Positions 11,341 to 34,566 of a stretch of DNA of 34,734 bases are shown piece by piece. The DNA is taken from assembly GCF_001434475.1 (NCBI RefSeq), contig NZ_AZGF01000025.1, positions 1-34,734 of the forward strand, read 5' to 3'. The notes under the pieces are model-generated. The model made no database searches. It had not been told where the DNA came from and saw only the letters and a program-made list of their open reading frames with translations. Numbering within the stretch: the stretch's first letter is position 1; the number at the start of each line of letters is the position of its first letter. Both the position numbers and the translations under genes were made by a program. This stretch comes from Paucilactobacillus suebicus DSM 5007 = KCTC 3549. Lineage in GTDB: Bacteria > Bacillota > Bacilli > Lactobacillales > Lactobacillaceae.

Positions 11341-11415
11341 TTAAGCAAGCCACAATTCCTATTTTAAAAAGTTAATTTCAAATAAAATATAAGCATAGTG
11401 AGGGAGCTATTTATC

Positions 11416-12078
11416 ATGATAAACGACGTATACGCTGCAATTAAGTCCAACGCTAAGGTATCAAGCCTTTTTAAGACCTGTCCTCTTGAAATTATTGATG
11501 AAATTGAAGTGAAAAATTTCAGTACGGGTGAGTTCAAACTCCTTCAAGGCAATAAGTATGATGATACCTATGTGTTAGTTTCTGGGAAAGTAAAAGTTTA
11601 TTTGATTTCTGGAGGTGGTAAGGAAGTTGTATTAGATGTTTATGATGCGGGAATGTTAATTGGTGAACAGGAAGCAATTATTAAAACCGCATATAGCGCG
11701 TCAATTCTGAACATTACACCAGTGGTAATGCTAAAGATTAATAATCGCAATTTTAGAAAATGGATCGATTTAGACCATGTTTTTGCCAGCAATTTTATTT
11801 ATAACTTATCTGAACAACTTTACCATCTAACTAAGCGTACGGAACGCTACAGTCTACATTCTGCTTTAGAACAAACGGTTGCGTATTTAATTAATGAACT
11901 ACAAACAGGCGATCAGATTACTCGCAAACAACTTGAGTATGAAGTAGATACATCATACAGAAACATAAACAGAATTTTACAAATTCTCAGCCAGGTTGAT
12001 GCAATCGAGGTTGACCGCGGCAATATCACAATTTTAGATCATTCAAAACTATACGATATTTTAAGAAACGGGGAGTAA
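11416..12078 (+). CDS. Crp/Fnr-family regulator of a nucleoside operon
   Basis: A 220-aa protein. The cyclic-nucleotide-binding-type beta-barrel spans about residues 15-115 (TGEFKLLQGNKYDDTYVLVSGKVKVY) and is followed by a dimer helix. The C-terminal winged helix-turn-helix is about 160-205 (TRKQLEYEVDTSYRNINRILQIL). ATG at 11416 is chosen: GAGGGAG lies 9 nt upstream. It has no Fnr-type cysteine cluster, and the phosphate-cassette arginine of cAMP sensors is not evident, so the effector is unknown. It leads an operon with a nucleoside phosphorylase 3 nt downstream, a PnuC-like transporter and a phosphopentomutase, recalling the YeiL regulators linked to nucleoside genes. Confidence 0.85.
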   Translation: MINDVYAAIKSNAKVSSLFKTCPLEIIDEIEVKNFSTGEFKLLQGNKYDDTYVLVSGKVKVYLISGGGKEVVLDVYDAGMLIGEQEAIIKTAYSASILNITPVVMLKINNRNFRKWIDLDHVFASNFIYNLSEQLYHLTKRTERYSLHSALEQTVAYLINELQTGDQITRKQLEYEVDTSYRNINRILQILSQVDAIEVDRGNITILDHSKLYDILRNGE

Positions 12079-12081
12079 AAA

Positions 12082-12798
12082 ATGGAAGAAAAACAACCAC
12101 ACACACAGTTAACTAGCGAAATTAATACAGATAGCGCAATTATTATGGGCGATCCTGCCCGTGTTGATAAGATTGCTGAGTTAATGGACAATGTTCAGTC
12201 ATGGGCATTTAACCGTGAATATAAATCAGTAATTGGTGAATATCGTGGCAAACGAATTTTAGCCATGTCAACAGGTATTGGAGCACCGTCAGCAGGGATT
12301 GGCGTCGAAGAACTAAACAACGTAGGTGTTAAAAATGTTATTCGTGTTGGCTCGGCCGGCGCAATGCAAAAAGGCATAGATTTTGGCGAATTAATTATTG
12401 GCGAAGGTGTTGTCCGCGACGATGGATTAACTCAAAAATATGCACCAGGAATTTATCCAGCTGTACCATCATTTAAGCTGATGTCATTAGCTCGAAAATA
12501 CGCTCCTGATGCGGTCTATGGCATTATTCGTTCTCACGATGGATTTTACATGGACGATAACGCTAAAAACGAAGCTTTTTGGTCAGAAAAGGGAATTGTC
12601 GGCGCAGATATGGAATCTGGCGCTTTGATGGTGATTGGCCGACAACGTCATTTAGAAACTCTATCAATTTTAAATAATGTAGTTTTATATGAGGGTGACT
12701 TATCTGCCGGGGTTAATGACTTGGTGAGTGGTGATGATCTAATGGCAAAGGGCGAAATTGCATCACTGAAACTGGCACTTGATATTTTGAGTGATTAA
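12082..12798 (+). CDS. Nucleoside phosphorylase (PNP/uridine phosphorylase family)
   Basis: A 238-aa protein of the NP-I hexameric family. Phosphate-binding elements are GDPARV at 23-28 and RVGSAGA at 88-94; the ribose-binding Met-Glu is MES at 177-179 (GADMESGAL); STGIGAPSAGIGVEEL is the usual glycine loop. The uridine-specific Gln-x-Arg pattern after FY is absent (FYMDDNAKN), and the PNP catalytic SD is not obvious, so base preference is open. It would split a nucleoside with phosphate into base and (deoxy)ribose-1-phosphate, the substrate of the DeoB encoded two genes downstream. GGGGAG precedes the ATG. Confidence 0.85.
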   Translation: MEEKQPHTQLTSEINTDSAIIMGDPARVDKIAELMDNVQSWAFNREYKSVIGEYRGKRILAMSTGIGAPSAGIGVEELNNVGVKNVIRVGSAGAMQKGIDFGELIIGEGVVRDDGLTQKYAPGIYPAVPSFKLMSLARKYAPDAVYGIIRSHDGFYMDDNAKNEAFWSEKGIVGADMESGALMVIGRQRHLETLSILNNVVLYEGDLSAGVNDLVSGDDLMAKGEIASLKLALDILSD

Positions 12799-12816
12799 AA
12801 AGAGGAGGAGTTAATC

Positions 12817-13539
12817 ATGGAAGCAAAACAACACGGTTGGTGGTTTAACCAATTATTTACTAACTGGAAAAAATTTGAAGTTATTTATGTATCTGTTTTA
12901 ATTGCCTTACAAGTAGTAGTTTACGCAATTGCCCCTGACACTGTGATTGGTATGTTATCTGGAGTTACCGGCGTTTTATGTCTTGTCTATGGAATGAAAG
13001 GTCGTAAAATTTCATTTCTATTTGGGGTTGTTCAGTGTCTCTCGATGACTTACATTGCTTGGATTAGTCACGCATATGGATCATTTGCAATGGATATTAT
13101 TTATGTCATTTCACAACCAATTGGCTGGTTTATGTGGGGCCGTGACGAAGCAACTCATTCATTCCAACCAAGGACTAGACGCATGATTTTTGGTGGAGCA
13201 TTTATCGCATGGGGAATTGGCTGGTTTGTGTTGGCTACATTACATGGACAATTACCATATTTTGATTCAATTAACTTTGTTGTAAGTATCATTGCTCAGA
13301 CTCTATACGTTATGAAATTCAAGGAAAATTGGTCATTATGGATTGTTGTTAACATTGCTAACGTTATCTACTGGGGTATTTTAACCGTCCAAACTTTAAT
13401 TGGTGCCACAGATATTGGCTCTCTTGGTGCTAATATGTCTCAAATTGCTCTACAAGCTGCATTGTTATTTAACTCAATTTACGCTACTAAGGTTTGGGCT
13501 AGTGGTGAAGCTGATAACGAAGGTGGAGCTGGTAAATAA
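12817..13539 (+). CDS. PnuC-like nucleoside/nicotinamide riboside transporter
   Basis: A 240-aa membrane protein with about seven hydrophobic helices, of the PnuC (SWEET-like) facilitator family. Tryptophan-rich ends are typical ([27 protein letters not shown]). GAGGAGGAG lies 6 nt before the ATG. PnuC imports nicotinamide riboside, PnuT thiamine and PnuN deoxynucleosides; here the operon partners (phosphorylase, phosphopentomutase) favour a nucleoside over a vitamin. No NadR-like kinase is present, so trapping would depend on phosphorolysis. The stop overlaps the DeoB start (TAATG). Confidence 0.85.
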
Positions 13540-14744
13540 TGACATCAAACTCATATAAATTTAAACGTGTATTTGTAGTTGTATTAGACTCTGTTGGAAT
13601 TGGTGCAGCATCTGATGCATTTAAGTATGGTGATGAAGGCGCGGATACATTGGGTCACGTCGGGGAGTTCTTTGACGGTAATTTAAAGCTACCTAATCTA
13701 GCTAGAATTGGTTTAAGCAACATTCGTCCTAATGCACCTATTACTGGTGTGCCGGTTCAGGATGCTCCAATTGGATGCTTTGGAAAAATGGAAGAAAAAT
13801 CTGTTGGTAAGGATAGTATGGATGGCCACTGGGAAATGATGGGATTACCTGTTTTGCAAGAATTATCAACGTTTCCTAATGGATTTCCTGAAGATATTAT
13901 CCAAAAGATTGAAAAGTTTTCTGGACGTAAAGTAATTGTTAACCGACCTTATTCAGGCACACAGGTAATTCATGACTACGGTGAAGAAGAAATTCGAGAC
14001 AATAGTCTAATTGTGTACACATCTGGTGATTCTGTCATGCAAATTGCTGCACACGAGGATAACTTACCAATAGAAGAATTGTATGAAATTTGTAGTTACG
14101 CACGAACGTTATTAAATGGGCCTGAATACACTGTAGGACGTGTTATTGCTAGACCTTTTGTAGGACCCGATAAAGATCATTTTACCCGCACATCTAATCG
14201 ACATGATTTTAGCTTGGCTCCAACTGGATTAACTGATCTTGTGAAACTACACAATCAAGGTTTATCTGTGATTGCGATTGGTAAAATCAACGATATTTTT
14301 TCAGGCCAAGGAATTGATGAGTCATATCATAATGAAAGCAATAATGATGGCATGGATCATATCGATGAAGTACTCCAAAAGGACTTCACGGGACTGTGCT
14401 TTGCTAACTTAGTTGATTTTGATGTTCTATATGGCCATAGAAGAAATCCGGCAGGCTTTGGACAACTATTGATTGATTTTGATCGCAGATTAGGCAATTT
14501 CATGAGTGAAATGCACGATGATGATCTAATGATGATTACCGCAGACCATGGAAATGATCCGACCTATAAGGGAACTGATCATACTCGCGAAAATGTACCC
14601 TTACTTGCTTATTCACCAGACTTGAATCATCCCGGTTACAACTTGGGTGTTCGTACCACATTTTCTGATTTAGGTGCAACTGTTTTGGATAACTTTGACA
14701 TTGATGTTGAAGGTGTCGGGACAAGCTTTATGGATCAACTTTAA
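13539..14744 (+). CDS. deoB: Phosphopentomutase variant
   Basis: A 401-aa member of the alkaline-phosphatase superfamily that interconverts (deoxy)ribose-1-P and -5-P. Metal ligands are conserved: Asp17 in VVLDSVGIG, the [10 protein letters not shown] segment, Asp-His in TADHGND, and His in GTDHTRE. The phospho-acceptor segment normally reads GKDTMTGHWE, with Thr as the phosphorylated residue. Here it is [10 protein letters not shown], giving Ser93 in its place and Asp95 for the second Thr. The substrate loop has TSGDSV instead of TSADSV. It may therefore be a specialised paralogue rather than the housekeeping enzyme. The ATG overlaps the transporter stop. Last gene of the operon. Confidence 0.9.
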
Positions 14745-21628: not shown

Positions 21629-23983
21629 TCATTTGTTGCTGCGAAATACGCGTTTAAATATTCCAATAGCAACAACAATTACAAGATAGATAATTAAACT
21701 ACTAACAAACGCCAAACCAATTAATGACATATTCTCCTGTAATGAATTAATTTGCAGGCTTAGCAGGGATTTAAACAAATAGGCCGCTACAAAGACAGTT
21801 ACAACACTGACGACAGCTAGCAAGAGTTTAAGCAAGTTATATGGTCGACAGATTTTTATCAAACTAAAGAGTGTTATCCATATGACCATATAGAACATCA
21901 GAATTTGAATTTGTGATGATGAAAGTGGCAGTGATTTTGATAATGCCAAAATCGCACCAACACCAACGGTAATTGAAACGGCAAATGGAAAAGCTTGTTT
22001 AATGGCAAATCGTAATGGTTGTCTTTTTACAGGACTTTTATCATTACTAAACTGGAGGAAGAAGGTCGGGTATCCTTCAATTAGAATATCTATCAACGTA
22101 ATTTCAATTGGTAAAAATGGGAACGGTACATTCAGCAGTAAACATACCAGAGATAAAAAGAGCGAGTAAAGAACTTTGACAAAGAACAAACTGCTGACGC
22201 TTGTGATAATATTGACTACGCGCCGACCTTCATTAATCAAATCCGGCAGTCCACCAATATTGTCGTTGAGTAAGACCAGTTGAGCTGCCTGTTGTGCCGC
22301 CGGACTACCACTGTTCATCGCGATACCACAATCCGCCGAACGAAGTGCCAATACATCATTAACTCCATCGCCAATCATCGTGACAGTTCGGTGATGAGAT
22401 TGTAGTGATCTGATTAATTTCAGCTTTTGATTAGGAGTAACACGACCAAAAATAGCATTATTCTCCGCGATTTCAGGTGTAATCTCTTCGTCTTCAATGG
22501 CGGCCATATCAACTAAGCGATCGTTATTTTGAATACCAGCTTGATCAGCAACGGTTGCAATCGTTAAGGGATTATCACCTGAAATAACTTTTACATCAAT
22601 TTGTTGATTTGCACAGTAATCAAGCACGTGCTGCACGTTGGTTCTAATTTGGTCGTTAAAGACAACGATCGCGAGGACCTCTGCTTTAGCTGGATCAATC
22701 TCTTTAACATCAGATGGTAACTGACCAACGCAAACCAGTCGTTTGCCTTGCTGTTGCGCTAATAAAATTTTTTCAGCAATTACAGGCGTGGCAGCTTCAT
22801 CAAATTTTTCTGGTGCACCAATTAGGATTGTCCCTTGTTGGTCAAATTTAACCGCACTCCACTTTGTTTCAGATGAAAAAGGAATTTTACGACTGACGGT
22901 CCAATCACGTCGAGCACCAAAATGGTTTTCCAGTGCTTGAAAAGTCGAATTGTTATCATCTGTGACGGCCACAAAGTTCTGCAATGCTTGCTTCAGTGAC
23001 TCACCAAAATCTGGTGATTTAATTTCGTGAACATCAGCGACTGTAATTTTGCCATCAGTGAGTGTACCGGTTTTGTCTAAACATAAAACATCAGTACGAG
23101 AGAGTGCAGCCAAGGAGTATACATCGTGAACCAGTACATGTTTGACCGATAACCAAACAGAACCAGCGATAAAAGAAACACCTAACAATAGTTGCACACC
23201 GATTGGCAGGATTCCCAGTAATGCGGTTGCAGTATTGAGAATTGTCTGATGTACGGCAGTATTGCGTAATAGATAAGATTGTGCAAACAGTGCAGCCCCT
23301 AGAGGTAACATGATCACACTAGCAATATTATTGAACTTCAGCATTGATTGAAGAATTGGCGAGGTTTCTCTTTGGTTGGCACGAGCCTGCATCGTTAGCT
23401 GAGTGGCAAAGTTGTCTTTACCGACTCGATTAATGCGGGCGTACGCTTTGCCACTGACCACGAAACTGCCGGACAGTAGTTGAGTACCCTTTTCTTTAAC
23501 GATTGGGTCCACTTCGCCGGTCAGTAAGGCTTCGTTAGCAAAAATTTGTCCATTAATCACGATGGCATCAGCACTAATCTGGTCACCAGCGGTTAACTCA
23601 ACCACGTCATTAAGCACTAGTTGCATTGGGTTTAATTTGATCGTTGCTCCATCGCGCAGTGTTCGCACTTGATTTCCAGCCAAAATGGCTAGTTGATTAG
23701 TTACTTTCTGTGCACGCCATTCTTGAACGATTCCACTGATGATATTGAAACTGACAACCACTAGGTAAAGTAAATTGATGTAAGAACCAGTAAGTGCAAC
23801 TAGTACACCAATGCCAAACTGGAAAAAATTCAGCCACGTAAATAAATTACGGCGAATGATTTTTCCCAAACTTGTTTGATCGCTTTCAGTAACTTGGTTG
23901 CCTAGGCCCTTACGTTGTTGCTCAGTTGCTTCACCGCTAGTGAGACCTAATGGCTCTGTCTGTTTTCCGGCAGTTTTTACCAA
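21629..23983 (-). CDS. P-type (HAD-IC) cation-transporting ATPase, unusual motifs
   Basis: 784 aa. The phosphorylation site Asp303 is in DKTGTLTDG, and the hinge is MIGDGVNDVLALRSADCGIAM. The actuator-domain motif is TGEV (155-158) instead of TGES, keeping the essential Glu. The M4 ion-site motif reads PIGV (260-263) where relatives have a PEGL-type motif, so the charged Glu is lost. About ten membrane helices are predicted. Start is TTG at 23983 with GAGG about 11 nt upstream; no better start is seen. It lies 39 nt behind a GT2 glycosyltransferase and is probably co-transcribed. Ion specificity cannot be assigned. Confidence 0.85.
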   Translation of the reverse strand: MVKTAGKQTEPLGLTSGEATEQQRKGLGNQVTESDQTSLGKIIRRNLFTWLNFFQFGIGVLVALTGSYINLLYLVVVSFNIISGIVQEWRAQKVTNQLAILAGNQVRTLRDGATIKLNPMQLVLNDVVELTAGDQISADAIVINGQIFANEALLTGEVDPIVKEKGTQLLSGSFVVSGKAYARINRVGKDNFATQLTMQARANQRETSPILQSMLKFNNIASVIMLPLGAALFAQSYLLRNTAVHQTILNTATALLGILPIGVQLLLGVSFIAGSVWLSVKHVLVHDVYSLAALSRTDVLCLDKTGTLTDGKITVADVHEIKSPDFGESLKQALQNFVAVTDDNNSTFQALENHFGARRDWTVSRKIPFSSETKWSAVKFDQQGTILIGAPEKFDEAATPVIAEKILLAQQQGKRLVCVGQLPSDVKEIDPAKAEVLAIVVFNDQIRTNVQHVLDYCANQQIDVKVISGDNPLTIATVADQAGIQNNDRLVDMAAIEDEEITPEIAENNAIFGRVTPNQKLKLIRSLQSHHRTVTMIGDGVNDVLALRSADCGIAMNSGSPAAQQAAQLVLLNDNIGGLPDLINEGRRVVNIITSVSSLFFVKVLYSLFLSLVCLLLNVPFPFLPIEITLIDILIEGYPTFFLQFSNDKSPVKRQPLRFAIKQAFPFAVSITVGVGAILALSKSLPLSSSQIQILMFYMVIWITLFSLIKICRPYNLLKLLLAVVSVVTVFVAAYLFKSLLSLQINSLQENMSLIGLAFVSSLIIYLVIVVAIGIFKRVFRSNK

Positions 23984-25436: not shown

Positions 25437-25465
25437 TTGACGAAAAAAACGGAAGCGCATACAAT
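25437..25465 (+). promoter_or_regulatory. Promoter P1 of the catabolic cluster
   Basis: TTGACG (25437-25442), a 17-bp spacer, then TACAAT (25460-25465). A cre-like site covers the spacer and -10. The layout is nearly identical to that of P3 at 30150. Confidence 0.85.
25450..25463. promoter_or_regulatory. cre-like site at P1
   Basis: CGGAAGCGCATACA fits the CcpA consensus TGNAARCGNWWWCA except for the first base. Confidence 0.7.
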
Positions 25466-25480
25466 ACATTCGAAAGTTAC

Positions 25481-25492
25481 TTAACCGGTTAA
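25481..25492. promoter_or_regulatory. LacI operator 1
   Basis: TTAACCGGTTAA, a perfect 12-bp palindrome about 10 nt after the P1 transcription start. It is the best copy of the shared motif TTAA-N-CG-N-TTAA. Confidence 0.85.
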
Positions 25493-25590
25493 CTTAATCT
25501 AACTTTTCACAAAAGGGACGATACGTACTTTATTCCATGATTTAAGGGATTATTAATAATATTGTTATAAGTATAACGGTTAATTAGTCA

Positions 25591-25602
25591 TTAACCGTTT
25601 AA
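25591..25602. promoter_or_regulatory. LacI operator 2
   Basis: TTAACCGTTTAA, immediately before the ribosome site of the first gene. With operator 1 (110 bp apart) it could support looping. Confidence 0.75.
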
Positions 25603-25626
25603 CCAATGGAAGGGAGCCATAGCATT

Positions 25627-26079
25627 ATGTTATTTTCCAATGTTAGCGGCTTGGATCAGTCGGATTACGACAAGTTGGAAAAGGCAATGACATTTCTCAA
25701 AGAGACCGACTTAACTAAGACGCCACTTGGTCGGAGCCATGAGGAAGGCGATATGTTTTATTGTCAAACTTTAGAGTATGAGACCGAAGATATCTCTGAT
25801 GTGCCATTTGAGGTCCATCAAAAAAGATTGGACTTGCACTACATCGTGGAAGGTGAAGAGGAGATTGATGTCTCACCAAATGTTAAATATATCAATGCTG
25901 GTGAATATAATCAGGAGCGAGATTTGCAGTTTGTTAAAACTCCTAACAATTTCAACAAAATTATTCTTCACCAGGGTGATTTTATTCTTATTGGTATGCA
26001 CGAACCACATCGAACAAACGGATTGGTCGATGAAAAGTCAACACATGTTAGAAAAATCGTTTTGAAGTTAGGAAAATAG
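25627..26079 (+). CDS. YhcH/YjgK/YiaL family protein (copy 1)
   Basis: A 150-aa protein of the DUF386 cupin-like family. Visible family elements are the central HQKRLDLHYIVEGEEEI and the C-terminal MHEPHRTNG histidine pair. ATG at 25627 is chosen: GAAGGGAG lies about 10 nt upstream. E. coli members (YiaL, YhcH) sit in operons for diketogulonate and sialic acid use and are thought to be sugar epimerases/anomerases or lyase accessories; the reaction is unproven. It is first in an operon with an MFS transporter and a second divergent copy, suggesting that the two act on successive or anomeric forms of one substrate. Confidence 0.85.
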   Translation: MLFSNVSGLDQSDYDKLEKAMTFLKETDLTKTPLGRSHEEGDMFYCQTLEYETEDISDVPFEVHQKRLDLHYIVEGEEEIDVSPNVKYINAGEYNQERDLQFVKTPNNFNKIILHQGDFILIGMHEPHRTNGLVDEKSTHVRKIVLKLGK

Positions 26080-26091
26080 GAGATGAACAAA

Positions 26092-27393
26092 ATGACAAAT
26101 GATTCTCTTGGCACTAAATGGACTGCTAAACAATTTCTTGTTATTGCAGGAATCTGGTTTGCCTTTTTAATTAGTTTTATTACTAGATTATCTTGGTCAA
26201 CAATCATGCCATCGGCGATCGATTCATTACATTTTACGGTTCAACAGGGTAATACTTATTTAACAGCGTTTTATATTGGTTATGCAATTACTGTTTTACC
26301 TGGTGGTATGTTAGCCGATAAATTTGGTTACCGTAAGTTATTGATGGCAGCCGTTCTTGGTAATTTTATTGTTATGGCAGCTATGATATTTATGCACGGA
26401 TACTGGGATGGTTTAGCACTTCGTTTTATTCTTGGTTTAGTTAGTGGACCGGATTTATCAGCATGTTTAGGAATCATTACTGAATGGTTTGATGGTAAGA
26501 AACGAGCTACTGCTACGGGTATATTTAACACTTGTACATCGTTTGGATTAACTGTGATCAACATTTATGCACCAACAGTGTTAGTTCACTATGGTTGGCG
26601 TGCTGCTTTCGGTGTTACCGCAATGTTTCCACTGGCAGCATTGATCTTTTGTTACTTTGCATTAAAGGGCAATCCTCCATTCCCACAACAATTTGGAATT
26701 AAGGAAGCTAATGGTAATGTTGCAACCGAATCAGTTTGGTCACGCTTGGGTGGTGCAATTAGTAACCGCAGTGTTTGGATGCTAGCTATTACTGGTTTGT
26801 TTGCCACAGGTGCTAAATGGGGTGTTACTAACTGGGCTAACTTGTTCATGGTTAAAAACTTACACTTCAGTTTGATCACTGCCGGGACAGCAATGTCAAT
26901 TTATGGAATTACATCAGTTATTTCAATGGTTGTTGCCGGCTGGATTTCAGATCATTCAAAATGGTCACGTCATACATGGGCAGCAATTTTCATGGCAATC
27001 TTCACACCAACAATTATCGGATTTGCATTGGTACCAAAGGGTAACTTAGGACTTCTATACTTCTGGACTGGCGCCATGGGTGTTGGGGCATTTATGTTTA
27101 GTACTATTACCAACAACCTGTCAGTTGAAGTTGCACCAGCAGATCAAAGAGGAACTGTTTCAGGATTCATCAACGTATTTAATCAATCTGGCTCATTCTT
27201 AGCTCCAATCTTACTAGGTGCATTACTAGCAGGTACTGGTAGCTACGTCACATCATTCTTGGTAATTTCAGTATTCCCACTTATTGCGGTGGTCGCACTG
27301 ATGTTTGTTCGTGAATCTGATGCAGACAAGGGTGCCAAGAAGGTTGTTGTTAACGATGAAGAAGCAGACACAGTAGCAAAAGGAGAATTATAA
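26092..27393 (+). CDS. MFS transporter, anion:cation symporter type
   Basis: A 433-aa permease with 12 predicted helices. The loop 2-3 motif LADKFGYRKLLM is of the G-x-x-x-D-x-x-G-x-R type, and the N-terminal RLSWSTIMPSAIDSLHFT resembles the ACS family (hexuronate, glucarate, tartrate transporters). ATG at 26092 is chosen because TAGGAG lies 9 nt before it; the ATG at 26083 abuts the ribosome site. Flanked by two YhcH-like genes, it is the only transporter in the cluster. The substrate is therefore likely an unphosphorylated sugar acid or ulose, taken up by proton symport. Confidence 0.85.
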   Translation: MTNDSLGTKWTAKQFLVIAGIWFAFLISFITRLSWSTIMPSAIDSLHFTVQQGNTYLTAFYIGYAITVLPGGMLADKFGYRKLLMAAVLGNFIVMAAMIFMHGYWDGLALRFILGLVSGPDLSACLGIITEWFDGKKRATATGIFNTCTSFGLTVINIYAPTVLVHYGWRAAFGVTAMFPLAALIFCYFALKGNPPFPQQFGIKEANGNVATESVWSRLGGAISNRSVWMLAITGLFATGAKWGVTNWANLFMVKNLHFSLITAGTAMSIYGITSVISMVVAGWISDHSKWSRHTWAAIFMAIFTPTIIGFALVPKGNLGLLYFWTGAMGVGAFMFSTITNNLSVEVAPADQRGTVSGFINVFNQSGSFLAPILLGALLAGTGSYVTSFLVISVFPLIAVVALMFVRESDADKGAKKVVVNDEEADTVAKGEL

Positions 27394-27395
27394 TT

Positions 27396-27863
27396 ATGGA
27401 ATTTGGATTAGGTAAAGAATATAAGCGCGACCCAAAGGTACAAGCAAGAATTAAGACAGCAATTGACTGGCTAGAAGGCAAGACGACTGAAGAATTATTA
27501 AACGAACCAATTGGCAACAAAGTAATTGCTGATGGTGTTGAACTACGTTTTCAAAGTTATGATACTCGTGAATATGCAACAATGAATTATGAAACACACC
27601 GCGAACATATTGATATTCACTACATGATTCAGGGTGCAGAATGGGTTCGTTGGGCAGATGCAGGAACTGCTGAACCAGTTGCTGACTATGATCCAGAAAT
27701 TGAAATTCAATTCTTTGGTCACCCAAAGCGTCACAGCAAGGCATTATTAACTGACCGTCATTATGCAATTTTTGATCCCTGTGATTTACATGCTGCTCAT
27801 GGAATTGTTGACGGCAAAGTTAGTCATAATCGTAAGCTTTGTGTCAAAATTGATGTTAACTAA
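27396..27863 (+). CDS. YhcH/YjgK/YiaL family protein (copy 2)
   Basis: A 155-aa second family member, clearly diverged from copy 1: THREHIDIHYMIQGAEWVRW carries the shared DxHYxxxG core, and IFDPCDLHAAHG the C-terminal histidine region, closer to the family norm than copy 1. AAAGGAG lies 10 nt before the ATG, just after the transporter stop. Two copies in one operon are unusual and suggest non-redundant activities such as anomer and epimer interconversion. There is no terminator, but a LacI operator with a new promoter follows. Confidence 0.85.
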   Translation: MEFGLGKEYKRDPKVQARIKTAIDWLEGKTTEELLNEPIGNKVIADGVELRFQSYDTREYATMNYETHREHIDIHYMIQGAEWVRWADAGTAEPVADYDPEIEIQFFGHPKRHSKALLTDRHYAIFDPCDLHAAHGIVDGKVSHNRKLCVKIDVN

Positions 27864-27891
27864 ATCAAATATATTTAATTTGCATAATTAG

Positions 27892-27903
27892 TTAATCGGT
27901 TAA
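27892..27903. promoter_or_regulatory. LacI operator 3
   Basis: TTAATCGGTTAA, overlapping the -35 of P2. Confidence 0.75.
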
Positions 27904-27928
27904 CACAGAATAAATTTTATCGTATACT
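27900..27928 (+). promoter_or_regulatory. Promoter P2
   Basis: TTAACA (27900-27905), a 17-bp spacer, then TATACT (27923-27928), in front of the dehydrogenase gene. The -35 shares bases with operator 3. Confidence 0.75.
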
Positions 27929-27962
27929 AGATAGCAATCACGTTAAAAAGGGGTATTAGTTC

Positions 27963-28940
27963 ATGGCAAAACAAAAAGTATTAGTAACAGGAATTATTCC
28001 TGAACAAGGATTAAAAAAATTACAAGAAACATTTGACGTAACATACACATCTGGTGAACCGTACTCACGCGAATGGATTTTGGATCATATTAGTGAGTAC
28101 GATGGTCTCCTTTTGATGGGAACCAAGGGTGATAAAGAATTAATCGATGCCGCTAAAAATCTGAAAATCATTGCAGTTAACGCGGTTGGTTTTGATCATG
28201 TGGATATCGAATATGCGCGTGAAAAAGGAATTGTTGTTGCCAACGCACCACAAGGTGTTCGTCTACCAACTGCTGAAATGACAATTACATTGTTGCTGGC
28301 AACAGTTCGTCACCTATATGAATATGATAAGATTGTCCGTTCAGGCAACTGGGTTGATGTCAGTGAACAGCGTTACATGGGTATGAGTTTACAAGATAAG
28401 ACGCTTGGAATCTTCGGGATGGGCAGAATTGGCAGCACAGTTGCTAAGTTTGCTCAAGTACTGGGAATGAACGTGATCTATAATGACCCATATCGTTTAT
28501 CAGAAGATCTTGAAAAAGAACTGAATGTTTCCTACGTTGACTTTGATACATTAGTTAAAACTTCAGACGTAATCACACTTCATGCACCAGCATTGCCTTC
28601 AACGATTGGTAAATTCAATGCTGAAATTTTCAGCGAAATGAAGGACACTGCATATATCATCAACGCAGCCCGTGGTGTGTTAATCAAACAGGATGACTTA
28701 ATTGAAGCTTTGAAGAATCACACAATTGCCGGAGCAGGTCTGGATGTATTTGAAACTGAGCCTGATATTCCTGAATCATTACGTGCATTAGACAATGTAA
28801 TCATGTCTCCACACGCTGGTACTGGAACTCTGGAAGCTCGTATTGCAATTGCTGCCGAAGCATCTAATAATATTATTTCGCTTTTGAAAGACGGTAAGGC
28901 TACTAATATGGTTAACAAAGTAGAAAAGTACGCTAAGTAG
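27963..28940 (+). CDS. D-2-hydroxyacid dehydrogenase, GhrB-like
   Basis: A 325-aa NAD(P)-dependent enzyme. The Rossmann loop GMGRIGSTVAKFA is near residue 153. The catalytic set is Arg in NAARGVLI, Glu in VFETEPDIP, and His in SPHAGTGT. GGGG lies before the ATG. In E. coli, GhrB (2-ketogluconate/hydroxypyruvate reductase) lies near the yia genes, and such enzymes reduce 2-keto aldonates. Here the LacI operator over its promoter ties it to the lyxK-type operon, so reduction of a 2-keto sugar acid or related ulose is the likely step. It is distinct from the family member at 863. Confidence 0.9.
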   Translation: MAKQKVLVTGIIPEQGLKKLQETFDVTYTSGEPYSREWILDHISEYDGLLLMGTKGDKELIDAAKNLKIIAVNAVGFDHVDIEYAREKGIVVANAPQGVRLPTAEMTITLLLATVRHLYEYDKIVRSGNWVDVSEQRYMGMSLQDKTLGIFGMGRIGSTVAKFAQVLGMNVIYNDPYRLSEDLEKELNVSYVDFDTLVKTSDVITLHAPALPSTIGKFNAEIFSEMKDTAYIINAARGVLIKQDDLIEALKNHTIAGAGLDVFETEPDIPESLRALDNVIMSPHAGTGTLEARIAIAAEASNNIISLLKDGKATNMVNKVEKYAK

Positions 28941-28958
28941 AAATATATTTAATCACCA

Positions 28959-28996
28959 AAAGCATTGGCAATGATATAATTGCCAATGCTTTTTGT
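28959..28996 (+). terminator. Terminator of the dehydrogenase gene
   Basis: AAAGCATTGGCAAT and ATTGCCAATGCTTT, then T-run. Confidence 0.95.
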
Positions 28997-29101
28997 CTCT
29001 TTGATGCCTCTTCTAAATTGTATATAATTAGTGGTATTATGAATCAAAGTGAGAAATGGGATTATTTCGTTCTGCAATTTTGATAACTCGGAGGAAACAT
29101 T

Positions 29102-30109
29102 TTGGAAAGACTAACAATCAAAGACATTGCTCAAATGGTTAACGTGTCGACTGCGACCATTTCTAACTACTTGAATGGCAACTATTCAAAAATGTCTGGA
29201 AAAACAAGAAACAAAATTGAAGAAATGATTAGGCAAACCAATTACGTTCCCAGCACGGTTGCTCGGGATTTAGCAACGAATGATAGTAAAACGATAGGTG
29301 TGTCTGTAGCAGATATTACCAACCCATTTACTTCGGCAGTTCTTTCTGGAATTTACGAAACTTGCGGGAACCTGGGATATACCGTGATTTTCACTAATGC
29401 CAGTGGGGATGCAATGCAGGAAATTGAAAATATTAATAAACTTAAGCGGCAAGAAGTTTCGGGTTTGATTATCGATCCAGTTGATGCGCAAAGCCCAATT
29501 TTTAAAACACTTAATAATAAAGATGCAGTGATGTTAGATCGTGAAGCTGTGAATATTCAAGTCGATACGGTAGTTACTGATAACTTCAATGCTGTGACTC
29601 ACTTTGTCTCCATGATGAAGGAAAATGGTTACGATGAAATGTACTTTATTACGTGGCCAATTGAACAAATTAGTACGCGTGTTACCCGCTATCAGGGATT
29701 TTTAGATGCTACCGGCTATAAGAATGACGACCATTGTATTGAGATTAGCAATCCCGGTGGGGACGATGAAGCTTTGAAGACACAACTTGCAGAAATTATG
29801 GAGGATCGTGAAGAGACCGGTAAAAAAATCGGCTTCTTCTCAATGAACGGTAAGGTGTTAATTCGTCTTATCCAAGCAATGAGATCAATCAATAAGCAGT
29901 ATCCATTCGATTATGGTGTTGGATCATACGAAGATTTGGATTGGATGGGTATTATGAAGCCAGGCATTAGTTGCATTCATCAAGATTCTGCTCATATTGG
30001 TGAAACAGCTGTTAAAAAATTAATTAGTAAACTGACCAGTGATGATGAACCTGGCAAAGCACAAAGAATTGTTGTACCAACCACATTGAAGCTGCGAGAA
30101 TCATTTTGA
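29102..30109 (+). CDS. LacI-family transcriptional repressor of the cluster
   Basis: A 335-aa protein. The N-terminal helix-turn-helix and hinge are LTIKDIAQMVNVSTATISNYLNG and NYVPSTVARDLATNDSKTIG, followed by a periplasmic-binding-like sugar domain (about 62-335). Start is TTG with GGAGG 7 nt upstream. The gene has no TTAA-N-CG-N-TTAA operator of its own, while five copies lie at the promoters on both sides, so it is the obvious regulator. The overall look is KdgR-like. Its inducer should be the cluster substrate or an intermediate. Confidence 0.92.
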   Translation: MERLTIKDIAQMVNVSTATISNYLNGNYSKMSGKTRNKIEEMIRQTNYVPSTVARDLATNDSKTIGVSVADITNPFTSAVLSGIYETCGNLGYTVIFTNASGDAMQEIENINKLKRQEVSGLIIDPVDAQSPIFKTLNNKDAVMLDREAVNIQVDTVVTDNFNAVTHFVSMMKENGYDEMYFITWPIEQISTRVTRYQGFLDATGYKNDDHCIEISNPGGDDEALKTQLAEIMEDREETGKKIGFFSMNGKVLIRLIQAMRSINKQYPFDYGVGSYEDLDWMGIMKPGISCIHQDSAHIGETAVKKLISKLTSDDEPGKAQRIVVPTTLKLRESF

Positions 30110-30125
30110 TTCTCGCACTTTTTTT
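30093..30125 (+). terminator. Terminator overlapping the LacI stop codon
   Basis: TGCGAGAATCA, loop TTT, TGATTCTCGCA, then C and T7; the stop TGA (30107-30109) is inside the stem. Confidence 0.95.
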
Positions 30126-30149
30126 AGTTGTTAAATTTGATTTCATCCG

Positions 30150-30178
30150 TTGACAACGAAAGAGAAAGCGAATACAAT
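30150..30178 (+). promoter_or_regulatory. Promoter P3
   Basis: TTGACA (30150-30155), a 17-bp spacer, then TACAAT (30173-30178). It is near-consensus, with a cre-like site over the -10 as at P1, and drives the propeller-lyxK-ulaE-araD operon. Confidence 0.9.
30163..30176. promoter_or_regulatory. cre-like site at P3
   Basis: AGAAAGCGAATACA fits TGNAARCGNWWWCA except for the first base, like the P1 copy. Confidence 0.7.
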
Positions 30179-30192
30179 GTGTTTGTTAAAGG

Positions 30193-30204
30193 TTAAGCGA
30201 TTAA
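30193..30204. promoter_or_regulatory. LacI operator 4
   Basis: TTAAGCGATTAA, about 8 nt after the predicted P3 start. Confidence 0.75.
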
Positions 30205-30281
30205 CAAAGGAGAGGAAAAATATCTGAACTTACATCCTTGCTATAACTAAAAGGAACTATGATATTTTTTTGCCATTTTAG

Positions 30282-30293
30282 TTAATCGCTTAA
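30282..30293. promoter_or_regulatory. LacI operator 5
   Basis: TTAATCGCTTAA, 89 bp after operator 4 and just before the ribosome site of the first gene. Confidence 0.75.
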
Positions 30294-30326
30294 CAAAAAA
30301 TAACCCGTTAGAAAGGTCGACTAAAA

Positions 30327-31331
30327 ATGAAGTTTACAAAGGTATTTTCAGATCAGCTGGATCACTGTTACGCCATTATGCGATTGACTGATCAGACACA
30401 TGACTACGTGATTGTAGCCTCAGAAGAAAAGCAACCATGCTATGCATATGATTTAAATAATGATTACAAGCGAACGACAGTCTGGCCAGATGTGGGCGGG
30501 ACGATGACTTTGGTACAGATTCCCGGTACATTGAATTTTTTGGCTACACAACGCTTCTACCCAGGCTTTAGCTCAGCCGCATGTCGAATTGTGAAGGAAA
30601 CGTTCAACGGTACAGACTGGGACCAAACAATCGTGGGTGATTTTCCATATGTTCACCGTTTTGACATTATCCAACACGATGGCGGTCTATGGTTCATTGG
30701 CTGTTCCATTGCTAATTCAAAGAAAAACACTGACGACTGGAGTGATCCTGGCAAGGTGTGGGTTGGTGATTATGATGACAATGCTGAAACCGTTAATAAC
30801 TTGCACGCCCTCGACTTTACGCTGACTAAGAACCATGGTTACAAGAATATGAACGGTTATTCGTTAATTACTGGTGTTCAAGGGGTCTACCGTGTTGATT
30901 ACCCAACGACTAATGAGGATTGGAAATTAACACGTCTGGTTAGCGAAGAGACCAGTGATATTGCTACAGCCGATGTCAATGGTGATGGTAAAGACGAATA
31001 CTTCACGATTGAAGGATTCCATGGTCCATACACTAGAATTTACGATAACCAGTTCAATACTTTGTATAAGAGTGAGGCAGTTTCACCATTTGGCCATGCT
31101 ATCTGGGGTGGCTTGATTGGTAGCAAAAACTATTTTGTCTTTGGCTACCGCGATGGTAAGCAAGATCTTGAAGTTATCAGCTTTGACAATAACAAGATCA
31201 ATATTCAACTGGTTGATAAGCAAGTTGGTCCAAGTAACGCGACTGTTTACGAAAAGGATGGAACGCAGTACTTGTTGTCTGCTAATCGTGAATCTGATGA
31301 AGTTGCCATTTATAAAATTAGCGAAGCCTAA
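30327..31331 (+). CDS. Cytoplasmic FG-GAP/VCBS-type beta-propeller protein of unknown function
   Basis: 334 aa without a signal peptide or membrane segment, although most FG-GAP proteins are extracellular. Repeated beta-rich blades are seen; one carries the calcium loop DVNGDGKDE at 216-224. Conserved-looking histidines lie at 110 (FPYVHRFDI), 170 (TKNHGYKNM), 232 (GFHGPYTRIYD) and 257 (FGHAIWGG). The blade FDIIQHDGGLWFIGCSIAN, then DDWSDPGKVWVGDY, recalls sugar-modifying propellers such as aldos-2-ulose dehydratase. It is the first gene of the operon with LyxK, UlaE and AraD homologues, so an enzyme acting upstream of the kinase (dehydratase, lactonase or epimerase) is inferred. The ribosome site is GAAAGG, about 9 nt before the ATG. 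Confidence 0.8.
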   Translation: MKFTKVFSDQLDHCYAIMRLTDQTHDYVIVASEEKQPCYAYDLNNDYKRTTVWPDVGGTMTLVQIPGTLNFLATQRFYPGFSSAACRIVKETFNGTDWDQTIVGDFPYVHRFDIIQHDGGLWFIGCSIANSKKNTDDWSDPGKVWVGDYDDNAETVNNLHALDFTLTKNHGYKNMNGYSLITGVQGVYRVDYPTTNEDWKLTRLVSEETSDIATADVNGDGKDEYFTIEGFHGPYTRIYDNQFNTLYKSEAVSPFGHAIWGGLIGSKNYFVFGYRDGKQDLEVISFDNNKINIQLVDKQVGPSNATVYEKDGTQYLLSANRESDEVAIYKISEA

Positions 31332-31355
31332 CCAATTAATAGCAGGTGAATTGTA

Positions 31356-32888
31356 ATGAATAAATACTTTTTAACAATCGATAATGGTGGCACAAATACT
31401 AAGGCAATCGTCATCGATACCAAGGGTAACCAAATAGGGGCCGTGGCATTTCCAACAATGAGAATTGAGGACAAGCCTGGGTTCCATGAAATTGATCTGA
31501 ACGAACTCTGGAATGCCATTAGCGATGCTATCAACAAAGTAATTGTCAAAACCAAAATTGATTCGATCGACATTGTTGGTGTTTCGTGCGTTGGCCATGG
31601 TAAGGGATTATATATGTTGGACGAAAATCATGAAATTTTCGCTCATGGGATTCTTTCAACCGATTCGCGAGCAGTTGACTTAGCCGAACAATTTGAAGCT
31701 AAAAATGGTGAAATTTTCCCAATCAGTCATCAGCATGTGATGGACAGCCAGTCGCCGGTGTTATTGAACTGGTTGAAGCAAAACGATTTCAAGACGTACA
31801 GCAACATTGGCGTGGTTCTTTCTGCCAAAGACTTTGTCAGATCACAACTGACTGGTGAAGTGTATCAGGAATATGGAGATGCGTCAGGAAATAATTTTCT
31901 AAACCTCGACACTAAGGAATATGATCCCCAACTATTCGACTTCTTTGGCATCAAAGAAATGTACGATAAAATGCCACCTCTCAAGTACTACGATGAGTTG
32001 GCCGGACACGTGACGAAAAAGGCTGCGGTTAAAACGGGATTGGCGGCTGGAACACCGGTCTTTGCGGGAATGTTTGATATTGATGCTTGTTCACTTGCTA
32101 CTGGCGTGCTCGACGATAACTATTTCAGTGTGATTGCTGGAACGTGGAATATTAATGTTTTTCCATCAACTAAACGAGCTGATGAAGCGTCAGGATTGAT
32201 GAATTCAATTTATCCAACTGGGTTGAACCTAGTTGAAGCTTCTAGTGCAACATCGGCGGGCAATTTAGCCATGACACTGCAAAGTTTAATGAGCGAAGAA
32301 ATCAAGAACGCCGCAACCAGTGATCAAAGTATTTATGATGTGCTTGAAGACTTCCTTAATCACACAGACGCAAGCTTTTCCAAGGTAATCTTCTTCCCAT
32401 TTCTGTATGGCTCCAATGTTAATCCAGATGCCGAGGGTGCCTACATTGGTATTCAAAGTAGTACGACCAAGTCGGCAATGGTTCGCGCCGTCTATGAGGG
32501 GATTGTATTCGCCCATCGTTATCACATCGAACAATTGTTAAAAGTATTAGGACATAAACCACAGGCAATTCGATTGTCTGGTGGTGGTACTAATTCAAGT
32601 GCCTGGGTTCAAATTTTTGCCAATATATTGAATATTCCCATTCAGTTAGTTGAAGGATCAGAACTTGGCGGTCTTGGTGGAGCCATGGGCGCTGCAGTCG
32701 GTAGTGGAGTGTATGACAACATTAATGAAGCTGTCGACAACATGTTCCACCTTAGAACCGAGATCAAGCCTCAACCTGATCAAGTGAAAATTTATGATCA
32801 AAAATATCATATGTATTTGAAACTGCTAGACAGTTTAGATGGCGTGTGGAGTGACTTCAAAACAATGCAGGAAGGAATTGGTGAATAA
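31356..32888 (+). CDS. lyxK: L-xylulose / 3-keto-L-gulonate kinase (FGGY)
   Basis: A 510-aa FGGY carbohydrate kinase. The N-terminal ATP motif is IDNGGTNTKAIVID (8-21), the catalytic base Asp241 is in GMFDIDAC, and the C-terminal nucleotide site is RLSGGGTNSSAWVQIFANIL. Stretches such as GHGKGLYMLDE, ILSTDSRA and FFPFLYGSN track E. coli LyxK (YiaP) closely, more than XylB or AraB. AGCAGGTG lies before the ATG. Its stop overlaps the next start (TAATG). The product would be L-xylulose-5-P, or a keto-acid phosphate as with 3-keto-L-gulonate; the absence of a SgbH/UlaD decarboxylase in the cluster favours a pentulose. Confidence 0.9.
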   Translation: MNKYFLTIDNGGTNTKAIVIDTKGNQIGAVAFPTMRIEDKPGFHEIDLNELWNAISDAINKVIVKTKIDSIDIVGVSCVGHGKGLYMLDENHEIFAHGILSTDSRAVDLAEQFEAKNGEIFPISHQHVMDSQSPVLLNWLKQNDFKTYSNIGVVLSAKDFVRSQLTGEVYQEYGDASGNNFLNLDTKEYDPQLFDFFGIKEMYDKMPPLKYYDELAGHVTKKAAVKTGLAAGTPVFAGMFDIDACSLATGVLDDNYFSVIAGTWNINVFPSTKRADEASGLMNSIYPTGLNLVEASSATSAGNLAMTLQSLMSEEIKNAATSDQSIYDVLEDFLNHTDASFSKVIFFPFLYGSNVNPDAEGAYIGIQSSTTKSAMVRAVYEGIVFAHRYHIEQLLKVLGHKPQAIRLSGGGTNSSAWVQIFANILNIPIQLVEGSELGGLGGAMGAAVGSGVYDNINEAVDNMFHLRTEIKPQPDQVKIYDQKYHMYLKLLDSLDGVWSDFKTMQEGIGE

Positions 32889-33796
32889 TGAATTCATTAG
32901 GTATTTACGAAAAAGCATTACCAGAAAATCTTAGTTGGATTGAAAAATTTAAACTCGTAAAAGAACTTGGTTTTAACTTCCTAGAATTTTCGATTGATGA
33001 AAGTGATGAAAAACTAGCTCGGTTGGAATGGACGCGTGAACAACGAGCAGAATTCCGTGATGCTATGTGGCAAACTGACAGTCGCATTAACACACTAATG
33101 CTTTCAGGCCATCGCCGTTATCCTCTTGGTTCAAAGGATCCAGCTATTCGTGCTAAGTCACTAGACATGATGCAAAAAGCGATTGATTTGGCAATTGATT
33201 TGGGAATTCGTAACATCCAAATGGCCGGTTATGATGTATACTATGAAGGTAAATCGGTTAACTCGCGTGAGCTCTACGTTGAAAATCTAGCCAAATGTGT
33301 CGAAATGGCTGAAAAGAAAGACGTTATGCTTTCTATTGAAACAATGGATGATCCGTTCATCAATTCCTTGGCCGACATTGCACACTACAAGACACAAGTG
33401 CGCAGTCCTTGGTTACAGAGTTATCCTGATTTGGGGAACCTGTCAGCTTGGCCGGAGAACAATGTGGCGCAGGAATTGGAAAACAACATCGACAATGTGG
33501 TTGCTGTTCATTTGAAGGATACATTGCCTGTTACTGCAACCTCTAAGGGTCAGTTCAAGAATGTGAAGTTTGGCGAAGGATGCGTTGATTTTGAAGGTTG
33601 CCTACGGACGTTGAAGCGTTTGAACTACTCAGGCAGTTTCACAATTGAAATGTGGTCTGGATCTGACAATAACGCCATTGATGAAGTTAAAGAGGCTAAA
33701 TCTTTCTTTGATGCATTGTTCAAGACGGTTGGAATCGACCAAGAACCTGTGAGTAATCAATTAGCTAATGATTTAGGAGGAAAAATTCATGCTTGA
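32888..33796 (+). CDS. ulaE: L-ribulose-5-phosphate 3-epimerase
   Basis: A 302-aa TIM-barrel epimerase of the UlaE/SgbU group, interconverting L-xylulose-5-P and L-ribulose-5-P. The start [17 protein letters not shown] and HRRYPLGS are hallmark stretches. Metal ligands are in place: Glu151 (SIETMD), Asp181 (SYPDLGN), His208 (AVHLKD) and Glu254 (TIEMW). It is about 18 residues longer than E. coli UlaE; the tail overlaps the ribosome site and first 8 nt of the next gene. Coupled by overlap to both neighbours. Confidence 0.95.
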
Positions 33797-34517
33797 AGAT
33801 CTAAAGCAAAAAGTTTATGAAGCAAACATGATGCTGCCAAAGCTTGATCTTGTTACTTTTACCTGGGGTAATGTGTCACAGATTGACCGGGAAAAGGGCC
33901 TGTTTGTGATTAAGCCATCTGGTGTTGATTATGATGTTATGAAGCCAGAAGATATGGTAGTTGTTAACTTAAAGGGTGAGGTTGTTGAAGGCGACATGAA
34001 CCCATCAAGTGATACACCAACACATACTTATCTGTATAACCATTTTCCAAATATTGGTGGGGTAACACATACTCATTCACCTTGGGCAGTTTCATTTGCT
34101 CAAGCAAAGATGGATATTCCTGCCTTTGGGACAACTCATGCTGACACATTCTATGGGGATGTACCGGCTGCCGATGCATTGAACCAAAAGGAAATCGAGG
34201 ATGCTTACGAAGCAAACACTGGCAAAGTGATTGTTGAAACCTTCGAAAAACGTGGTATCGATCCAGATGCTGTACCAGCTGTTTTGGTTAGCCAACATGG
34301 GCCATTCACTTGGGGCAAAGATGCTGCCGATTCAGTGCATAATGCTAAGGTACTCGAAGTGGTTGCCGAAATGGACTACCATACGCTTCAGTTAACACAC
34401 GATGATAGCCATGTGCCACAATACTTGCTCGACAAGCACTACTACCGTAAACATGGTGCTAATGCATATTACGGTCAGAATAATGCTAAGTCGCAGGGAC
34501 ATGCGAAGAAAGCTTAA
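33789..34517 (+). CDS. araD: L-ribulose-5-phosphate 4-epimerase
   Basis: A 242-aa class II aldolase-fold enzyme (AraD/SgbE/UlaF). Zinc ligands are His94, His96 (GVTHTHSP) and His170 (SQHGPF). The catalytic Asp119 in HADTFYG and the tyrosine in [14 protein letters not shown] match the E. coli pattern. It converts L-ribulose-5-P to D-xylulose-5-P, the entry to the phosphoketolase/pentose phosphate route. GGAGGA lies 8 nt before the ATG, inside the ulaE coding end. No AraA or AraB is adjacent, so it serves the L-xylulose branch rather than arabinose. Last gene before a terminator. Confidence 0.95.
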
Positions 34518-34526
34518 TAATTTACG

Positions 34527-34566
34527 AAAATGGCACCGAGGTCAAACTTGGTGCCATTTTTTCTTT
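34527..34566 (+). terminator. Terminator of the lyxK-ulaE-araD operon
   Basis: AAAATGGCACC and GGTGCCATTTT arms with T-rich tail mark the end of the cluster; no further gene is seen to the window end. Confidence 0.95.

Follow-up and report, generated by a model that had tools for sequence, protein, structure and literature searches.

A predicted beta-propeller protein as candidate 3-keto-L-gulonate-6-phosphate decarboxylase in a sugar acid cluster of Paucilactobacillus suebicus

The window analysed here is one whole contig, 34,734 bases long, of the draft genome of Paucilactobacillus suebicus DSM 5007 (2.65 Mb in 81 contigs, 99.98% complete as estimated by tool). Between positions 25437 and 34566 it carries nine open reading frames (ORFs), all on the plus strand and uninterrupted, which we name yhcH1, MFS, yhcH2, HADH, lacI, PROP, KIN, ulaE and araD. 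Their lower half is the L-xylulose-5-phosphate branch, with a LyxK-like kinase (KIN) and clear UlaE and AraD, as a preliminary description of this DNA had recognised. It had also listed as lacking the decarboxylase SgbH/UlaD, a YiaK-type reductase, a tripartite ATP-independent periplasmic (TRAP) or phosphotransferase system (PTS) transporter, and a lactonase. No match to any of these was found among the nine genes, and for UlaD the gap holds throughout the draft genome. Which protein, then, leads into the L-xylulose-5-phosphate branch? Our preferred reading, which we hold to be fairly probable on the grounds of gene context and analogy, is that the cluster is a LacI-controlled 2,3-diketo-L-gulonate pathway, analogous gene by gene to the Escherichia coli yiaK-S operon, in which PROP, a predicted beta-propeller of 334 amino acids (30327 to 31331), would decarboxylate 3-keto-L-gulonate-6-phosphate.

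PROP and the missing UlaD

UlaD and UlaA (E 1e-100) were searched over the same 395 Lactobacillales genomes, with UlaDs counted at 206 bits or more. UlaA was present in 125 genomes, 117 of which had a UlaD that matched strongly (E at most 5.6e-61). The remaining eight (G234, G285, G313, G353, G361, G377, G381 and G389) all belong to the genus g47 of family f5, and all have PROP (Fisher value 2.6e-9 for PROP versus UlaD absence among UlaA-positive genomes, phylogeny ignored). Five of the eight (loci L046, L049, L050, L051, L052) have UlaG-EIIA-UlaA-EIIB-AraD-UlaE-transketolase-PROP in this order on a single contig. The contig that carries the operon stops within the transketolase in the other three. 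In G353 and G389 a second contig has the rest of the transketolase followed by PROP; in G377 PROP is found no more than 320 bases from the beginning of another contig.

The association extends beyond this order. A profile of 22 PROPs found matches in eight of 398 Bacillota genomes, one of them that of the window. Outside the Lactobacillales, PROP stands beside ula genes in five genomes: G566 (f34), G713 (f135), G519 (f78), and G428 and G736 (both f42). The f42 ula loci read UlaG-EIIA-UlaA-EIIB-UlaE-PROP-AraD, and in G566 a 4.9 kb contig holds PROP, a 584-aa ORF, UlaG and a piece of UlaA. Two further genomes are G470 (f73), which is kinase-type (PROP-UlaE-AraD-GntR-KIN-AP_endonuc_2-MFS-YhcH; AP_endonuc_2 assigned by 27% identity to the protein of locus L053 and not by model, GntR likewise without a model scan), and G670 (f42), where only the C-terminal part of a PROP is found, near AraD. 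At E 1e-3 no UlaD match was obtained in any of the seven genomes, except for a partial one of 20 bits in G519. UlaG passes the NCBIfam L-ascorbate-6-phosphate lactonase model in L052, L145, L146 and L148 (608-646 bits, cut-off 306), and the UlaGs of L149 and L150 are 56% identical to that of L052. When UlaA was searched at E 1e-80 in a sample of 239 Bacillota genomes, it was found in G428 and G566 only, both with PROP and without UlaD. In total, UlaA, UlaG and PROP occur together in 13 genomes in which no UlaD was found (bar the partial match in G519), the eight of g47 plus G566, G713, G519, G428 and G736.

In an operon with PTS, UlaG, UlaE and AraD and without UlaD, the empty step is the conversion of 3-keto-L-gulonate-6-phosphate to L-xylulose-5-phosphate. 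The simplest reading is therefore that PROP performs the same decarboxylation as an unrelated protein. In kinase-type clusters such as the window's the same step is empty, if KIN does what LyxK does. The PROP tree places the kinase-type PROP of f73 with a ula-type one of f42 (support 99/96), inside an f42/f73 trio (100/100) whose third member is also ula-type, so that close PROP relatives serve both routes. PROP, UlaE and AraD are common to the PTS/UlaG and the kinase routes, which converge at 3-keto-L-gulonate-6-phosphate. Beside ula-type PROPs no HADH relative was found among the ORFs compared, apart from a distant one (28%) in L153, about 3 kb from ulaG; this absence is expected if the role of HADH is to reduce 2,3-diketo-L-gulonate. 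The preliminary description was right to point to the propeller protein. Its conclusion that a different upper chemistry is implied is not supported, and is made less likely by PROP taking UlaD's place in ula operons with an ascorbate PTS and UlaG. No new pathway need be invoked, and what these contexts suggest is probably a new enzyme.

The contig stops at position 34734, so absence within the window alone proves little, and the draft genome was searched. No UlaD match was found in it at E 1e-3, with a query that elsewhere detected proteins of 24-36% identity. Its one OMPdecase-family protein (197 bits) lies between PyrD-like and PyrE-like ORFs (recognised by eye), neighbours that identify it as PyrF; an OMPdecase match was present in 15 of the 16 genomes examined, L. 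enshiensis being without. A UlaD hidden elsewhere in the genome or the regulon was thus looked for by the UlaD search and by operator matches and not found, the operators off this contig being four one-mismatch matches. Among the kinase-type PROP genomes, no UlaD match at E 1e-3 was found in the window's, G171, G470, L. enshiensis and L. koreensis, and weak matches occurred in G306 (20 bits), P. vaccinostercus (39), L. andaensis (33) and L. fujinensis (36). These weak relatives are probably hexulose-phosphate synthase-like. Both PROP and UlaD are present in G386, G374, G366, G267, G316, G211, P. nenjiangensis and P. oligofermentans, and probably also in F. milii.

Fold of PROP and rival explanations

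PROP has no Pfam or NCBIfam match at 1e-3, and none to PF00215. A PDB sequence search with its profile gave no match at E up to 10, a plasmid search with PROP gave none either, and no signal peptide was seen by eye. An AlphaFold2 model from 13 sequences reached a predicted local distance difference test (pLDDT) score of 79 and a predicted template modelling (pTM) score of 0.82, with a chain that is nearly all beta; the single-sequence model had a pLDDT of 36. Among the best 50 of 1343 Foldseek matches are propellers of 9-14% identity, with the LGI1 EPTP domain first (TM score 0.64-0.67). The window PROP scores a weak 15.5 bits against FG-GAP_3 (gathering cut-off 26.9), and similarly weak matches around one DxNxDG motif were seen in 11 of 22 PROPs at E up to 10 (best 0.0013). 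PROP has at most a weak FG-GAP_3 similarity and a predicted propeller fold to link it to the VCBS/FG-GAP propellers, a group that includes aldos-2-ulose dehydratase; its context differs. UlaD/SgbH, the 3-keto-L-gulonate-6-phosphate decarboxylases (KGPDC) of the OMPdecase suprafamily, have a TIM barrel fold. The reaction proposed for PROP is the same, whereas its sequence and predicted fold are unrelated.

Twenty-eight columns are identical in 28 PROPs, among them H110, R111, N169, H170, H257, R275, N304 and N320. From the alignment, this His/Arg/Asn set suggests a site under strong selection, and it would suit the binding of a phosphate and of an enediolate held by a metal. H232 is conserved in 27 of the 28, the remaining one having Tyr; this relative (L045:9759-10832, genome G012) adjoins a repetitive surface-protein ORF. 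PROP genes that are partial or read in two frames occur in L. kisonensis (L008:849-1727), in G389, where PROP reads in two frames (G389:C7:658372-659395), and in G670 (L151); they appear to be decayed copies or assembly errors.

Several observations weigh against PROP as a decarboxylase of this pathway. We know of no beta-propeller decarboxylase, and the best 50 of the 1343 Foldseek matches are generic propellers only. The eight UlaD-less Lactobacillales represent one genus, so that the Fisher value overstates independence. PROP is also found in six of the 117 genomes that have both UlaA and UlaD, so that lack of UlaD is not the sole reason for its presence; UlaD lies right beside the cluster in P. 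nenjiangensis, P. oligofermentans and G386. The weak UlaD relatives of some kinase-type genomes may act on 3-keto-L-gulonate-6-phosphate. In G012 PROP stands outside any sugar cluster that we saw, the contig of G566 does not extend far enough to reveal UlaE and AraD, and the UlaA of G519 is only 28% identical. The tree tool warns of long branches meeting between the two main PROP groups. The part of HADH as diketogulonate reductase is assigned by slot-filling only. Nor is the specificity of KIN fixed by similarity, since LyxK-like kinases occur in a tetritol-like cluster: at E 1e-80, a KIN search in 106 genomes found one other genome, G055, with kinases of 36-37% identity (L177:4197-11620 and L178). 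In L177 they accompany triosephosphate isomerase, an RpiB-like ORF (by eye), Dak1, Dak2 and a short-chain dehydrogenase/reductase, a set that resembles tetritol catabolism.

The main reason why our confidence is not higher is a third kind of cluster, in genus g63 of family f3 (L053-L055). Here PROP is found with HADH, AP_endonuc_2, GAT-type EIIB/EIIC/EIIA, galactonate dehydratase (565 bits in L053, cut-off 311) and KDPG aldolase; the families were modelled in L053 only (L053:9014-16112), with EIIB and EIIA assigned there by position. This context offers no obvious place for decarboxylation. The PROPs of these three genomes are 28-29% identical and sit on a long branch (1.95), but in them all 28 invariant columns are retained and four other columns differ, so that residues alone do not set them apart. 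Either their function differs, or the PROP reaction is broader than decarboxylation.

Other explanations of the cluster were weighed, and our estimates for them overlap and do not sum to one. The one we rate highest among them, although unlikely, is the idea of the preliminary description, that the cluster serves a sugar that is not an ascorbate product (such as L-xylulose, L-lyxose or some acid) through undescribed chemistry of PROP and the YhcH pair. KIN could indeed act on L-xylulose, as E. coli LyxK is annotated to do, and neither MFS nor HADH is diagnostic of a substrate; but the cluster is linked to ula genes in relatives, PROP itself has a ula context, and a kinase-type PROP groups with ula-type ones in the tree. 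Rather doubtful, too, is a route without UlaD chemistry in which PROP would isomerise, epimerise or dehydrate a keto sugar acid through a different enediolate step. Such a step would also cover the galactonate-type clusters of g63, where HADH adjoins PROP (in the window type it likewise adjoins PROP or has just lacI in between), and the VCBS propeller group includes aldos-2-ulose dehydratases (PMC8023676, in its accessible part). What speaks against it is the flow from UlaG to UlaE in ula operons, which needs a decarboxylase, and beyond regulators and PTS-type ORFs these operons leave only the g47 transketolase as another candidate.

We consider it improbable that PROP is a lactonase or other hydrolase, like paraoxonase or SMP-30, with the decarboxylation being spontaneous or left to another enzyme. 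Beta-keto acids can decarboxylate unaided, and PON1 and an SMP-30-type lactonase are among the best 50 of the 1343 Foldseek matches of the model; these two matches, at 9-10% identity, are however generic to propellers, and PROP-type ula loci already have the lactonase UlaG. Many propellers are binding platforms, but PROP as a non-catalytic sensor, chaperone or regulator of the pathway is very improbable, as this would leave 13 ula genomes without any decarboxylase found and the invariant His/Arg/Asn set suggests a strongly selected site.

Two candidates were set aside. The transketolase is unlikely to be the g47 decarboxylase: in Streptococcus pneumoniae a transketolase rises with ascorbate together with UlaD, UlaE, UlaF and UlaG, that is, with a UlaD-containing ula regulon (PMC4324149, accessible part), and no transketolase is found among the nine window genes. 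PROP as the 6-phosphomannonate 2-epimerase of L. suebicus (accessible part of PMC6978723) was set aside because PROP contexts point to ula; the loci were not searched for galacturonate genes.

The cluster, its regulation and its relatives

2,3-Diketo-L-gulonate is the opened oxidation product of L-ascorbate. In the preferred reading, a decarboxylating PROP in a diketogulonate pathway, this compound or a related ascorbate product would be imported by the major facilitator superfamily (MFS) protein (26083 to 27393; PF07690). That family assignment of the preliminary description stands, and its anion:cation symporter (ACS) label is left undecided by the models, the best being PgtP (144 bits) and a D-galactonate transporter (128 bits), both far below cut-off. 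YhcH1 (25606 to 26079; YhcH/YiaL family, DUF386; PF04074 at 7.2e-30; 24% identity to E. coli YiaL) and YhcH2 (27396 to 27863; PF04074 at 1.6e-21; 30%) would handle ring or anomeric forms of the substrate, YhcH1 as an anomerase-like accessory. HADH (27963 to 28940; PF02826/PF00389) would reduce 2,3-diketo-L-gulonate to 3-keto-L-gulonate, by analogy the role of YiaK. It belongs to the D-2-hydroxyacid dehydrogenase family and its best PDB relatives are glyoxylate reductases; the earlier label GhrB-like is loose, as the GhrB model (197 bits) is outscored by those of phosphoglycerate dehydrogenase (280) and glyoxylate reductase (270), every one below cut-off.

KIN (31356 to 32888), an FGGY kinase, is 31% identical to E. 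coli LyxK over its full length (280 bits) and scores 118 bits with XylB, the two kinases compared. It may be a 3-keto-L-gulonate (or L-xylulose) kinase, and in the proposed route it would form 3-keto-L-gulonate-6-phosphate, from which PROP would release L-xylulose-5-phosphate by decarboxylation. UlaE, the UlaE/SgbU-type L-xylulose-5-phosphate 3-epimerase (32888 to 33796; 49% to SgbU), passes PRK13210, a model of UlaE-type L-ribulose-5-phosphate 3-epimerase (415.7 bits, cut-off 200), and AraD, the AraD/SgbE-type L-ribulose-5-phosphate 4-epimerase (33789 to 34517; 58% to SgbE), passes PRK08193 (402 bits, cut-off 257). Together they would convert L-xylulose-5-phosphate through L-ribulose-5-phosphate to D-xylulose-5-phosphate, which in a heterofermenter would enter the phosphoketolase pathway. 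PROP, KIN, ulaE and araD are tightly packed, with a gap of 24 bases followed by overlaps of one and eight bases. The regulator (29102 to 30109; PF00356/PF13377) has RbsR as its best NCBIfam model (159.6 bits, cut-off 382). The Pfam and NCBIfam models bear out the two YhcH/YiaL proteins, the LacI regulator, the kinase and the two epimerases of the preliminary description.

The nine-gene stretch begins at 25437 with the first base of a promoter-like site, TTGACG-17-TACAAT (25437 to 25465, plus strand), before yhcH1, and a similar site, TTGACA-17-TACAAT (30150 to 30178, plus strand), precedes PROP; both were found by eye as consensus matches only. Within them lie sequences at 25451-25464 and 30163-30177 which we take to be like catabolite-responsive elements (cre). 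LacI-type operators with one mismatch to GTTAANCGNTTAAC are found at 25480 to 25493 and 25590 to 25603, with the same 14 bases in L003, L004 and L005. Perfect ones stand before HADH (27891 to 27904, present in L003 too) and at 30192 to 30205 and 30281 to 30294, with sites at the corresponding places in L003-L007, and for the last in others as well. A terminator-like inverted repeat with A and T tails lies between HADH and lacI (28958 to 28996), and the stretch ends at 34566, just past a hairpin and T-run 3' of araD that was seen by eye.

Within one mismatch of the pattern, the window holds six sites (five intergenic, one inside ulaE), against 0.10 expected in shuffles. The whole genome holds ten, including these six, and all three perfect ones lie in the window, at the HADH and PROP units. 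The pattern read backwards, used as control, gave 21 matches in the genome, so that one-mismatch matches as such are not rare. Of the four off-contig matches, with one mismatch each, three fall inside ORFs of 416, 642 and 928 codons and the fourth outside any ORF of at least 150 codons. Relatives have the operator before corresponding units, including Levilactobacillus loci with yhcH2-MFS-yhcH1 as a separate unit; at least one site was found in 15 of 16 related loci, and none in L044. With a predicted LacI operator at each transcription unit, the nine genes are predicted to share one regulon.

PROP relatives were found at 13 loci in named genomes (Paucilactobacillus, Lentilactobacillus, Levilactobacillus, Furfurilactobacillus and one metagenome-assembled genome) and in 21 of the 395 Lactobacillales genomes, the window's own included. 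The two sets overlap, since L006 and G386 (L. sunkii) and L007 and G171 (L. otakiensis) are the same genomes. The core HADH-PROP-KIN-UlaE-AraD recurs, in some cases with lacI between HADH and PROP, and two uptake modules alternate or coexist with it. One comprises MFS and two YhcH proteins, with MFS between YhcH1 and YhcH2 in relatives as well; the other comprises an EIIC-GAT permease without PTS partners and Amidohydro_2 and AP_endonuc_2 proteins. The permease and the Amidohydro_2 protein adjoin HADH-PROP in L007:5154-7641, L014:6410-8861, L043 and L044, and the pair may be a dehydroascorbate importer and a lactonase feeding the same core. In L042 and L043 no ulaE or araD lies next to KIN, and their genomes, G366 and G316, have UlaA and UlaD elsewhere.

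Links to ascorbate genes are found in several relatives. In L004 (P. nenjiangensis) and L005 (P. oligofermentans), ulaG, EIIA, ulaA, EIIB, ulaD and ulaE follow directly downstream, to the end of the locus, and L005 has an operator-like site with one mismatch before ulaG. The neighbours of yhcH1-MFS-yhcH2-lacI in G386 are an FGGY kinase, UlaG (555 bits, cut-off 306), UlaD (291 bits, cut-off 250) and a permease related to the EIIC-GAT one. On contig 31 of this genome (L180:1206-6916) the kinase, UlaG, UlaD, a haloacid dehalogenase (HAD) protein and the EIIC-GAT permease without PTS partners stand in a row, which could be a non-PTS ascorbate route with the kinase replacing PTS phosphorylation.

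Elsewhere in the window, a Crp-like regulator, a phosphorylase-superfamily protein, a nicotinamide mononucleotide (NMN)-type transporter and a Metalloenzyme-superfamily protein stand in a row at 11398-14744, and look like a nucleoside or nicotinamide-riboside salvage operon. Upstream of the cluster, on the minus strand at 21629-23983, lies a P-type ATPase-like protein of 784 amino acids (by eye from the translation).

Known systems and meaning

The closest known counterpart is the yiaK-S operon of E. coli (yiaKLMNO-lyxK-sgbHUE), which likewise has a YiaL-type protein, a LyxK-type kinase, SgbU/UlaE, SgbE/AraD and its own regulator. Slot by slot, HADH would stand for YiaK, YhcH1 and YhcH2 for YiaL, MFS for YiaMNO, KIN for LyxK, PROP for SgbH, UlaE for SgbU, AraD for SgbE and LacI for YiaJ/PlaR. 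The window cluster differs in having PROP and not SgbH, a HADH outside the YiaK family, an MFS and not a TRAP transporter, a LacI and not an IclR-type regulator, and two YiaL-type proteins. E. coli YiaK had no match among the nine proteins at E 0.01 and no TRAP transporter is found among the nine genes, the rest of the genome not having been searched for either. In Klebsiella pneumoniae yiaKLX1X2PQRS, described in the accessible part of PMC4324149 as a second ascorbate system beside ula, the secondary transporter YiaX2 replaces YiaMNO, comparable to the MFS of the window. Its gene names imply an E. coli-type PQRS set with SgbH, and by these names only is it set apart from the window. Both yiaK-S and the Klebsiella variant serve ascorbate or 2,3-diketogulonate use, according to the accessible parts of PMC4324149 and PMC6958661.

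The ula operon (UlaABC-UlaD-UlaE-UlaF, with UlaG) shares its lower pathway with the window cluster, which relies on a kinase and lacks both a PTS and UlaG; PROP occurs with ula genes of other Bacillota in the position of UlaD; in Streptococcus mutans, SMU.273 is given as the decarboxylase (PMC4802650, accessible part). The galacturonate-mannonate pathway of L. suebicus is another case of a lactobacillus channelling a sugar acid into the phosphoketolase pathway, with kinase and epimerase genes left unidentified. It runs through UxaC, tagaturonate epimerase, UxuB and 6-phosphogluconate, and no PROP-like gene is named in the accessible part of PMC6978723. In searches of open-access PMC papers, none of those listed pointed by its title or abstract start to a propeller decarboxylase or to this gene set; subscription papers are mostly outside this collection, so absence from print is unproven.

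On balance, and judging from gene neighbourhoods, the odds seem slightly in favour of PROP being a new family of decarboxylases and, to our knowledge, the first built on a beta-propeller. It would replace UlaD/SgbH non-orthologously and be interchangeable across PTS/UlaG and kinase-type clusters in Bacillota, and three yiaK-S functions (transporter, reductase and decarboxylase) would be taken by unrelated proteins in the window. If true, a family without a Pfam or NCBIfam model gains a specific and cheaply testable reaction, and decarboxylation would take place on a fold not known for it. Genomes scored as having broken ascorbate pathways would be complete. It would also account for a possible use of oxidised vitamin C by some lactobacilli, and the upper half of the cluster would be filled.

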